Of a stretch of 64,000 nucleotides of DNA, positions 19,030-22,542 are shown piece by piece (position 1 is the first letter of the stretch; every line of letters begins with the position of its first letter). The position numbers were made by a program, and so were the translations under genes. Origin of the DNA: an uncultured Planctomycetota bacterium (lineage in GTDB: Bacteria > Planctomycetota > Planctomycetia > Pirellulales > Thermoguttaceae); NCBI GenBank assembly GCA_902796885.1, contig CADBQY010000078.1, positions 1-64,000 on the forward strand. Reading direction: 5' to 3'. The notes under the pieces are model-generated. The model ran no database searches and was not told the origin of the DNA. It was given only the letters and a program-made list of their open reading frames with translations.

Positions 19030-19117
19030 CGCGCGCTCAACGGATTCCGTGTGTTCGGAGGATTTGGCGGAGCGGGGGAATCGGAAAAAATTTTTTTAGG
19101 GGAGACTAAATCCCCTC

Positions 19118-19146
19118 TTGACAGGTATTAAGTTTGGAAGTATATT
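19118..19146 (+). promoter_or_regulatory. dtxR promoter
   Basis: Near-consensus: -35 TTGACA (19118-19123), 17-bp spacer, -10 TATATT (19141-19146). The expected start is ~19153, inside the operator. Confidence 0.85.
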
Positions 19147-19167
19147 TTAGCCGAACCTAAAGTTTGG
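19145..19167 (+). promoter_or_regulatory. Candidate DtxR/iron-box operator, dtxR copy
   Basis: Contains the dyad TTTAGCCGAACCTAAA (19146-19161), overlapping the -10 box and transcription start. The 23-bp element matches the one upstream of feoB (20067-20089) at TTTTAG, C, CCTAAA and TTTG. The position predicts metal-dependent autorepression. The match to DtxR-family operators is by dyad shape and by the adjacent regulator gene. Confidence 0.7.
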
Positions 19168-19180
19168 CCGGGAGTTTTCT

Positions 19181-19738
19181 ATGGGTCAATCTCAGACAAA
19201 CCGCCTTTCCGACAGTCTTGAAGATTATTTGGAGGCGATTTATCGGATTATTCTTGAACGGGGACAGGTCAAGCCGAAGGACATTACGAAGGCGATGCGT
19301 GTGGCGGGGGCTTCCGTGACGGGAGCGCTTCGGACGCTGGCCGAAAAAGGCTTGATTCGTTACGCTCCCTACGACGAAATCTCGCTGACGCCGTCGGGGC
19401 TTTCGATCGCTCAAGACGTTTTCAGCCGCCATAAACGCCTTAAAGCTTTCCTGAAAAACATGCTTGATGTACCCGAGCAGGAAGCCGACGAGACGGCCTG
19501 CAAAATGGAGCATGTCATTTCGTCCGAAACGCTCGGTAAGTTGGTTCGTTTTGCCGAGTTTATCGAGTCGTGTCCTCGCGGCGGCCGTCTTTGGATCTCC
19601 GGGTTCGAACACCAGTGCGATCCGAAACATGCCCTTGACCGGTGCCGGGATTGCGTTTCGCTGGCGCTCCGTCGGATCGACCAAGAGCTGGAGGGTGCGT
19701 CGGAAGGCGCGAAATCACGAAGGAAAAACGAATCATGA
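19181..19738 (+). CDS. DtxR-family metal-dependent transcriptional repressor
   Basis: 185 aa. The N-terminal winged helix (DSLEDYLEAIYRII ... ASVTGALRTLAEKGLI, residues ~10-60) is followed by the metal-binding and dimerisation domain (HKRLKAFLKN, ADETACKMEHVISSETLGKL, residues ~85-130) with its Cys, Glu and His ligands. There is no C-terminal SH3/FeoA-like domain. The tail GFEHQCDPKHALDRCRDC is Cys-rich and may bind metal. It directly precedes feoA (64-bp gap), so the ligand is most likely Fe(II), though Mn(II) is the usual alternative in this family. Confidence 0.92.
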   Translation: MGQSQTNRLSDSLEDYLEAIYRIILERGQVKPKDITKAMRVAGASVTGALRTLAEKGLIRYAPYDEISLTPSGLSIAQDVFSRHKRLKAFLKNMLDVPEQEADETACKMEHVISSETLGKLVRFAEFIESCPRGGRLWISGFEHQCDPKHALDRCRDCVSLALRRIDQELEGASEGAKSRRKNES

Positions 19739-19802
19739 CGCCGCCTGTCGGCCGCGCGTCCGATTGAGCCGGCGGTTTACCCGTAATTTAGTGGAGAAGA
19801 CG

Positions 19803-20018
19803 ATGCTTTTGTCAAACGTTCCAAACGGAAAATTTGTGGTCATTGACAACATCAAGCTGGGCGAGGAATCGACGACGCGTCTTTCCTCCCTTGGTCTGGT
19901 TCCCGGGGCGCGGATTCGCGTTATCTACAACTCGACGCCGAAGACCTCGGTGGTCGAATGTCTCGGCGCGCGTCTGGCTCTCGGCCGCGGGATCCCCAAT
20001 TTTGTGGAAGTGCACTGA
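19803..20018 (+). CDS. feoA: FeoA-domain protein
   Basis: 71 aa, a single FeoA/SH3-like domain (KLGEESTTRLSSLGLVPGARIRVI ... VECLGARLALGRGIPNFVEV). FeoA supports Fe(II) uptake by FeoB at the cytoplasmic face. The start is ATG 19803 behind GGAGAAG; the longer in-frame reading upstream overlaps dtxR and is not credible. A terminator follows directly, so feoA is probably transcribed with dtxR rather than with feoB. Confidence 0.93.
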   Translation: MLLSNVPNGKFVVIDNIKLGEESTTRLSSLGLVPGARIRVIYNSTPKTSVVECLGARLALGRGIPNFVEVH

Positions 20019-20025
20019 ATTCTTC

Positions 20026-20058
20026 AAAAAGAAGGCTATTTTAACAGCCTTTTTTTTG
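20026..20058 (+). terminator. Intrinsic terminator between feoA and feoB
   Basis: Stem AAGGCT/AGCCTT (20032-20037 with 20046-20051), extended by A:T pairs with a GU wobble, followed by eight T. It separates feoA from the feoB operator. Confidence 0.75.
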
Positions 20059-20089
20059 AGCCTAAATTTTAGGCTTGCCTAAACTTTGT
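20059..20089 (+). promoter_or_regulatory. Double iron-box operator upstream of feoB
   Basis: Two overlapping perfect dyads: AGCCTAAATTTTAGGCT (20059-20075, 8-bp arms) and TTTAGGCTTGCCTAAA (20068-20083, 7-bp arms). The second matches the dtxR operator. A weak promoter may overlap it (TTGAGC at 20056, TAAACT at 20080), consistent with steric repression. Confidence 0.75.
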
Positions 20090-20154
20090 CTTGCCGTGCG
20101 TAAAGGCGAGTGCGTTTATCTGCAGAGGGTTTTGATTTAGATTCGAGGTCATTA

Positions 20155-22542
20155 GTGTCTGAACCGGTAAAAAAAATTAAGGTGGCGCTGGCGGGAAACC
20201 CGAACAGCGGGAAGTCGACGATTTTCAACTATTTGACCGGCGCGAAACAGTCGATCGGTAACTTTCCCGGCGTGACCGTCGAACGCTATGAAGGTCAGAC
20301 CCAATGCGACGGGGTCAAGGTGGACGTCATTGACCTGCCGGGTCTTTACAGTATCACATCGAAGACGGACGAGGAGAAAGTCGCGGGAGACTATCTTCGG
20401 AACGAGCCGTACGACGTGATCGTCGATATCGTCGACGCGTCGAATCTGGAACGGAACCTCTATCTAACCTACCAGCTCAAAGAGCTGAACCGCCCGACGC
20501 TGGTCGTACTGAACATGGTTGACGTGGCGCGCCGACGCGGCATCGAGATCGATACCGAAAAGTTGAGCGAGGCGCTCGGTATGCCGATCATCGAGACCGT
20601 CGGAAGCAAGGCGGTCGGCATCAAGGAAGTTTTAAAAAAGATGACGGAACTCGGCGTCGAAGGACGCCGCCGACCGCAGCCCGCGCCCGCCGCTTCCCAG
20701 GAGGGGGCGCAGGAAGAACTTGTTTCGAACGAAGATGTCGACTGCGCCGCCTGTGCCTGTCCCGGTTGTTCGAAGGGGTGCGCCAGGGTCGTCGCGCTCG
20801 ATATGGCCCGCTATAAGGAAATCAGCCAGGTCTGTAGCCGCGCGGTGCGGAACGTTTCCCCGTCGGGACAGACCTTCTCGGACCGCGTCGACGCGATTCT
20901 GACAAACCGTTTCATCGGAATTCCGATCTTTCTTGCGGCGATGTATTTCGTCTTCTGGCTGACGTTTACCGTCGGCGCCTATCCGATGGACTGGATCGAC
21001 GCCGGTTTCGGCTGGCTTGGCGACAAGATCGCCGGATTCTGGCCGGAGGGTTCCGAATCGTTCCTGAAATCGCTCATTCTCGACGGGATCATCGGAGGGG
21101 TCGGCGGCGTGATCGTCTTCCTGCCGAACATCGTCATCCTCTTTTTGGCGATCTCTTTCCTTGAAGATTCCGGTTATCTGGCGCGCGCCGCCCTTTTATG
21201 CGACCGGTGGATGAGCAAGCTCGGTCTTCCGGGACGGAGCATCGTTCCGTTCCTCGTCGGGTTCGGCTGCACGATTCCCGCGCTGATGGCGACGCGTATG
21301 CTGAACAACCGCAAAGAACGTCTGGTGACGCTGATGGTTTTGCCGCTTTTTAGCTGCGGCGCGCGTTTTCCGATTTACGCGCTTTTGATTCCCGCGTTCT
21401 TCGCCGAAAAGTGGCGGGCTCCCGTCCTTTGGATCGTCTATCTGGTCGGCATCGTTCTGGCGGTTGTGCTGGCTCGGATTTTGAGTCTTCTTTTGTGGAA
21501 GAAGGGGGAAGAAAACCCGTTTATCATCGAACTTCCTCCGTATCACCTTCCGACGTTCCGCACGGTCGGGATGAAAACTTGGGAACGTTCGCTCGGCTAC
21601 CTGAAAAAGGCCGGAACGGTGATCCTGGGCGCTTCGGTTTTGATTTGGTTCCTGACCACCTATCCGAAAGCGACTTCGGACGTCCACGACGAAATCAACG
21701 CTCGCCGCGACAGCGTCGCCGCCGCGCTTGAAGAGTTCCCCGAAGGGGATAACGCTCAGGTGGTCGGCGCGCTGAAGGCAAAAATCGGGGAGCTGGAACT
21801 GACCGATCTTGAAAAAGAGGAGCTGAACGAAGCGCTCGACGCGGCGGCGGAAAAAGTCGTCAACGTCGACGAACTGAAAGAAAAAATCGCCGCGCTCGCC
21901 ATGGCCGAAAGTGAGCGGGCCGCTGTCGTCGGCGCGCTCGACGGCGCTCTTGCCGAGGCTGAGGCCGAAGAGCCTGAACTCGCCGCCGGAGACGTCGCGG
22001 GACTTATCGAAGAACTTGAAGTCGCCGACGAGAGCGTCAAAGAAAAACTGGGGGGCTTGGTTGAAGAAACCGCCGCCGACCCGACCCTTGCGGCTGATGG
22101 GCTGGAAGAACAGCTTGGGGTGGTGTTTGATCGCGAGGAAAGTCAAGCAGACCTTGAAGCGAGTTTTGCCGGTCATATCGGCCGAGGGCTTGAACCGATC
22201 CTCAAACCCATGGGGTTTGACTGGAAAATCGGGACATCCCTGGTCGGGGCGGTGGCGGCCAAAGAGGTTTTCGTCGCGTCGATGGGGATCGTTTACTCGG
22301 TCGGCGGCGAAGAAGGCGACGAGGAGAGGCTTGGCGAAGTCCTTCAAAGTCAGTATACTTGGCTCACGGCGTTCTGTATCATGATCTTCGCGCTGATCGC
22401 GACTCCGTGCGCGGCGTCGCTGGCGGTGATGGCCAAAGAATCCGGGTCTTGGAAATTGGCCTGGACCCAGTGGATCGGTCTGACTGTGATCGCGTGGATT
22501 GTCACGACCCTGATTTACCAGATCGGGAAATATTGGCTGTAA
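20155..22542 (+). CDS. feoB: Ferrous iron transporter FeoB with unusual insertion
   Basis: 795 aa from GTG 20155 (GAGG upstream); a 5' GTG at 20110 would add 15 residues without similarity. The N-terminal GTPase has G1 GNPNSGKST, G2 NFPGVTVE, G3 DLPG and G4 NMVD. A cysteine cluster (DCAACACPGCSKGC, about residues 195-208) lies in the linker after the G domain. The membrane part has both Gate motifs (VGFGCTIPALMATR, PLFSCGARFPIYALL). Between ~505 and 670, after a membrane helix, is a long Glu/Ala-rich, probably helical insertion where most FeoBs have a few dozen residues. It imports Fe(II) across the inner membrane. Confidence 0.95.
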   Translation: MSEPVKKIKVALAGNPNSGKSTIFNYLTGAKQSIGNFPGVTVERYEGQTQCDGVKVDVIDLPGLYSITSKTDEEKVAGDYLRNEPYDVIVDIVDASNLERNLYLTYQLKELNRPTLVVLNMVDVARRRGIEIDTEKLSEALGMPIIETVGSKAVGIKEVLKKMTELGVEGRRRPQPAPAASQEGAQEELVSNEDVDCAACACPGCSKGCARVVALDMARYKEISQVCSRAVRNVSPSGQTFSDRVDAILTNRFIGIPIFLAAMYFVFWLTFTVGAYPMDWIDAGFGWLGDKIAGFWPEGSESFLKSLILDGIIGGVGGVIVFLPNIVILFLAISFLEDSGYLARAALLCDRWMSKLGLPGRSIVPFLVGFGCTIPALMATRMLNNRKERLVTLMVLPLFSCGARFPIYALLIPAFFAEKWRAPVLWIVYLVGIVLAVVLARILSLLLWKKGEENPFIIELPPYHLPTFRTVGMKTWERSLGYLKKAGTVILGASVLIWFLTTYPKATSDVHDEINARRDSVAAALEEFPEGDNAQVVGALKAKIGELELTDLEKEELNEALDAAAEKVVNVDELKEKIAALAMAESERAAVVGALDGALAEAEAEEPELAAGDVAGLIEELEVADESVKEKLGGLVEETAADPTLAADGLEEQLGVVFDREESQADLEASFAGHIGRGLEPILKPMGFDWKIGTSLVGAVAAKEVFVASMGIVYSVGGEEGDEERLGEVLQSQYTWLTAFCIMIFALIATPCAASLAVMAKESGSWKLAWTQWIGLTVIAWIVTTLIYQIGKYWL

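Follow-up and report, generated by a model that had tools for sequence, protein, structure and literature searches.

Three groups of described regulators come close to the system analyzed here, each in a different respect. IdeR and DtxR of Actinobacteria share with its repressor the two-domain core and a Cys residue in the primary metal site, and TTAGGNNNNCCTAA makes up half of their 19-bp box; this 14-bp form has also been proposed as the site of a single IdeR dimer (PMC8464063). MntR of Bacillus and the MntR-like DR2539 of Deinococcus, likewise composed of two domains without SH3 and with Asp and Glu at the positions of D8 and E11, are its closest solved structures. With respect to the targets, the nearest likeness is to the Fur regulons of delta-proteobacteria, which include feo genes, a flavodoxin and a P-type ATPase, and in which an iron-repressed flavodoxin has been predicted for Desulfovibrio (PMC545781).

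The planctomycete locus described below, located in a 64-kb stretch of DNA analyzed as a whole (the window), departs from all of them. Compared to IdeR and DtxR, its repressor lacks the SH3-like domain, carries Asp instead of Met in the primary site and Gly at the position of Gln43, and has an added four-cysteine tail, and there is no 19-bp two-dimer box. Unlike MntR and DR2539, it has Cys in place of Glu99, and both operator and regulon are of the iron-uptake type; from the delta-proteobacterial systems, whose box is WTGAAAATNATTTTCAW, it differs in the regulator family and in the box. A search for DtxR together with feoB in planctomycetes retrieved no description among the papers covered. 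Judging from the sequence, the boxes constitute a conserved DtxR-type iron regulon of an ordinary kind, i.e. a familiar mode of control predicted in a new group.

Boxes, promoters and genes of the locus

Scoring TTAGGNNNNCCTAA at every position of the window returned a full match (10/10) at 20069 and 9/10 at 19096 and 19147, with all other positions of the 64 kb reaching at most 8/10. The boxes at these three positions (A, B and C in Table 1) are genuine. Two of the dyads, at 19147 and 20069, and their shared TTTG flanks had been recognized in the first-pass annotation and are indeed present, but the third, at 19096, had been missed; moreover, the box assigned there to the dtxR start site lies in fact 20-35 bp upstream of the ATG codon (19181), adjoining a sigma70-like -10 hexamer. 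The 23-bp surroundings of boxes B and C are identical at 18 of 23 sites, the flanking TTTG among them. The placement of these two boxes relative to the promoter is also the same (TATATTTTAG for dtxR, TAAATTTTAG for feoB), with each -10 ending on the base with which its box begins. No riboswitch in the leaders was matched by Rfam. The 19-bp two-dimer box is absent, as the registers 5 bp away from the boxes score 2 to 6 of 10; the possibility that another dimer overlaps the one at box B or C was considered and rejected (best register 6/10).

Table 1. Features of the dtxR-feoA and feoB units (coordinates refer to the window)
Feature	Position	Strand	Remarks
Box A, TTTAGGGGAGACTAAA	19095..19110	+	predicted dtxR-feoA operator, 5' of the -35; 9/10 vs TTAGGNNNNCCTAA
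dtxR-feoA promoter, sigma70-like	19118..19146	+	TTGACA-17-TATATT; 11/12 matches
Box B, TTTAGCCGAACCTAAA	19146..19161	+	predicted operator over the dtxR transcription start; first base common with the -10
dtxR-family metal-dependent repressor, 185 aa	19181..19738	+	PF01325, PF02742; Foldseek
feoA	19803..20018	+	PF04023
Intrinsic terminator 3' of feoA	20023..20060	+	hairpin with T run
feoB promoter, sigma70-like, weak	20041..20068	+	TTAACA-16-TAAATT; 9/12 matches; -10/box register as in box B
17-bp perfect dyad, AGCCTAAATTTTAGGCT	20059..20075	+	best read as -10 hexamer beside the left arm of box C
Box C, TTTAGGCTTGCCTAAA	20068..20083	+	predicted feoB operator; 10/10
feoB	20155..22542	+	GTG start; TIGR00437, PF02421, PF07670, PF07664

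The Feo system is complete, comprising a FeoA domain protein and the FeoB GTPase-permease, the latter matched by TIGR00437 with 579 bits (cut-off 316); the GTG start codon of feoB is replaced by ATG in the relatives. FeoB contains a CAACACPGC cysteine cluster (20743-20769) as well as a charged insertion some 110-140 residues long (21691-22110), which finds no alignment in the FeoB proteins of the genus members G002 and G006. The terminator after feoA, already pointed out in the first-pass annotation, is present (predicted RNA fold -17.4 kcal/mol, z -5.4) and conserved: hairpins follow feoA in three relatives, and in G004 the stem is altered on both sides. Upstream of feoB, the terminator stem, the poly-T run and box C are all retained, and the -35 of the feoB promoter sits inside the hairpin.

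The repressor and its metal

The protein encoded by dtxR belongs to the DtxR family: both the N-terminal winged-helix domain (PF01325, 54.5 bits) and the metal-binding dimerization domain (PF02742, 67.6 bits) score above the cut-off, the top Foldseek matches are MntR, DtxR and IdeR, and no SH3/FeoA-like domain was matched within the 185 residues. Its putative ligands Asp15, Glu18, His84, Cys107, Glu110 and His111 correspond to D8, E11, H77, E99, E102 and H103 of MntR, so that the set is MntR-like except for Cys107, at the position of MntR Glu99 and DtxR Cys102. Of the two sulfur ligands of DtxR, Met10 and Cys102, the Cys is thus present and the Met is replaced by Asp.

It must be considered whether the regulator is a Mn(II) sensor of the MntR type, with feo under the control of manganese or of both metals. 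The best NCBIfam matches are MntR models (albeit far below their cut-offs), MntR provides the closest Foldseek structures, and Asp15 and Glu18 match D8 and E11. However, Glu99 of MntR is replaced by Cys, as in DtxR; the predicted regulon, described below, comprises feo and flavodoxin, and none of the exact sites was found to precede a Mn transporter. Of the 139 homologues with Cys, 77 have feoB within the retrieved locus and 48 have a box upstream, whereas the 16 with Glu have neither (0/16 for both), although the flanks of the latter are often shorter. Manganese sensing is therefore an unlikely explanation, and on the strength of Cys107 and the regulon we favor Fe(II) over Mn(II) as the probable metal. 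Sulfur ligands of the DtxR type have been described as increasing the selectivity for Fe(II) (review: PMC10317159).

The C-terminal tail (19571-19654, residues 131-158) displays the pattern CPRGG..W...F...C........C..C. The C-x14-C-x8-C-x2-C arrangement is found in many homologues across phyla, including many from Desulfobacterota; since the rows of our alignment A3 were partly picked for the Cys tail, its invariance there does not count as independent evidence. The tail could possibly bind a further metal ion or an Fe-S cluster, but the predicted structure has pLDDT of about 50-70 beyond residue 130, and for this reason we do not claim a fourth metal site. The same genome encodes a PerR-like member of the Fur family, and Fur-family proteins are found in six of the seven genus members; the PerR-like protein may contribute to the control of iron.

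Conservation and the control of feoB

The alignment of the regions upstream of dtxR from five species reveals invariance of TTGAC of the -35, TATATT of the -10, the box arms and, in box B, TTTAGxxGAACCTAAAGTTTG, against a variable promoter spacer. Box A retains its arms (with one change in G000) around a variable N4, and its distance to box B is 51 bp in all five species, while a feoB box occupies the place of box C in all seven genus members. The comparison proposed in the first-pass annotation, which looked for conservation restricted to the dyads, thus finds it limited to the dyads and the promoter hexamers.

The same annotation had read an additional, overlapping 17-bp dyad as evidence for tighter, double-site control of feoB. 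This dyad is present and perfect in the window's own genome, and its extra left arm is retained as CCTAAA in three of the five species (GCTAAA in another one). However, the arm contains the -10 hexamer, and in G004, where it reads ACTATA, the dyad is broken, with the hexamer turned into TATAGT; in addition, shifting the register by 5 bp to the left or right of box C yields scores of just 3 and 4 of 10, and the extra half-site lacks a partner at the spacing required by a DtxR dimer. All this favors the interpretation of the arm as a probable -10 hexamer over that of a second operator, although it may also act as an additional half-site, and makes double-site control of feoB improbable. We assign the two-box control to dtxR-feoA instead, to which two conserved boxes belong, leaving feoB with one.

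As for the proposed split of feoAB, feoB does have a separate promoter and box after a conserved terminator, but this is hardly a peculiarity of the locus. Boxes also intervene between feoB and a preceding feoA, or DtxR-FeoA fusion, in loci from another Planctomycetia MAG, Acidobacteria, Cloacimonadota, Coatesbacteria and Deferribacteraceae, and this occurrence in several phyla indicates that the split control is a recurrent, common arrangement. Three loci from other genera or families (L014, L184 and L185) encode DtxR repressors of about 250 aa. The one in L014 carries a fused FeoA-type domain, with a separate feoA match downstream, which suggests that FeoA and the repressor have become fused or separated.

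Sites in the genome and in related genomes

The assembly from which the window derives (3.14 Mb, 81% complete) was analyzed by pattern searches. The exact form TTTAG-N6-CTAAA occurs in it five times, twice before dtxR and once each before feoB, a flavodoxin gene (G000:C84) and a P1B-type ATPase gene (G000:C114), the last two identified by PF00258, PF00122 and TIGR01525; three of the five sites, boxes A, B and C, fall within a single 1-kb stretch. Among the five close species (G000, G001, G003, G004 and G005), 23 of 24 exact sites precede these four units, and G004 retains the ATPase without a box. The two most distant members of the genus also possess exact-form sites outside the assignments to dtxR-feoA, feoB, flavodoxin and ATPase. 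The further sites that the first-pass annotation had suggested looking for thus exist, and they precede iron-linked genes.

The placement of the sites is best described simply as far beyond chance, since the estimate takes sites and genomes to be independent and the flavodoxin and ATPase targets were found through the motif itself; the description already holds for dtxR-feoA and feoB, named beforehand, which account for three of the five sites. The idea that the boxes are no more than A+T-rich repeats arisen by chance, or merely parts of terminators or promoters, agrees with genome-wide totals of the degenerate pattern that do not exceed the reversed control, but since the signal resides in the placement (5 of 5 exact sites for the window's own genome, 23 of 24 for the five species) and in the conservation, it deserves practically no credence.

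In the five species, a single exact site falls elsewhere than before the four units: TTTAGGCAAGCCTAAA (G003:C303:2285; L080:2285), a perfect box 5' of a small ORF. The boxes that the window's own genome carries close to lysC, within a phage-like ORF and elsewhere in coding sequence look like chance occurrences. Another box, TTTCGGCTTGCCTAAA, is located about 240 bp upstream of a nuoE-like gene (G000:C204:50756; L087:2757) and is kept in four genomes; as a divergent oxidoreductase gene faces it as well, we leave it as a candidate. In Saccharopolyspora, the reported single-dimer target of IdeR is the promoter of complex I (nuo) (PMC8464063).

Covariation of the operator with the recognition helix

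Within the genus, the position of Gln43 is occupied by Asn in G002 and G006 and by Gly in the close species, and TTTAGA/TCTAAA is found in both boxes of G002 and in the feoB box of G006. Across the homologues, the half-site tends to read TTAGG with Gly or Ala at this position, TTAGA with Asn, Val or Ser, and TTAGC with Lys or Arg (loci with the box 5' of dtxR: L012, L013, L015, L128, L171, L182, L223 and L232). The grouped residue and the base are associated in 48 box-bearing loci (permutation p 0.0002, uncorrected for relatedness and with groups set after seeing the data), and an upstream box is present in 35 of the 81 Gly-type loci, versus 0.46 in shuffled sequence. In IdeR, the Q43A and C1-to-T1 changes were of little effect (PMC8464063), so a residue-base code would be unexpected, and we regard the covariation of the Gln43-position residue with the first half-site base pair as a lead only. 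It is tempting, if rather speculative, to imagine that the Cys-tailed iron sensors of the DtxR-like type form a clade extending across several phyla, that the residue at the Gln43 position dictates the first base pair of the half-site in their single-dimer operators, and that the four C-terminal Cys residues make up an additional metal or Fe-S site.

Proposed mechanism and implications

With consensus score, conservation and placement in agreement, the DtxR-type operators postulated in the first-pass annotation find ample support, and we consider it very probable that the boxes are operators of the Fe(II)-dependent repressor encoded at the locus, each bound by a single dimer in keeping with the 14-bp consensus put forward for IdeR. 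Under this model, the Fe(II)-loaded repressor would place one dimer on each TTAGG-N4-CCTAA box, covering the start of dtxR-feoA at box B and that of feoB at box C; because both boxes abut the -10 in the same register, binding would block RNA polymerase by promoter occlusion. Lying about five helical turns 5' of box B, box A would accommodate a second dimer at dtxR-feoA, and the position of the boxes supports the negative autoregulation of this unit suggested in the first-pass annotation. The terminator after feoA, together with the separate promoter and box, would place feoB under separate control. Under iron scarcity, the repressor would leave the DNA and allow FeoA, FeoB, the flavodoxin and the P1B-ATPase to be made. 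Flavodoxin can substitute for iron-sulfur ferredoxin. For the ATPase, iron repression is at odds with the role of a simple iron exporter.

The four units would constitute a compact predicted iron regulon of anaerobic gut-type planctomycetes, in which the 14-bp single-dimer DtxR box appears as the main form of the operator rather than an exception. Within one genus, recognition helix and operator have changed together, which raises a directly testable question of specificity in the DtxR family.
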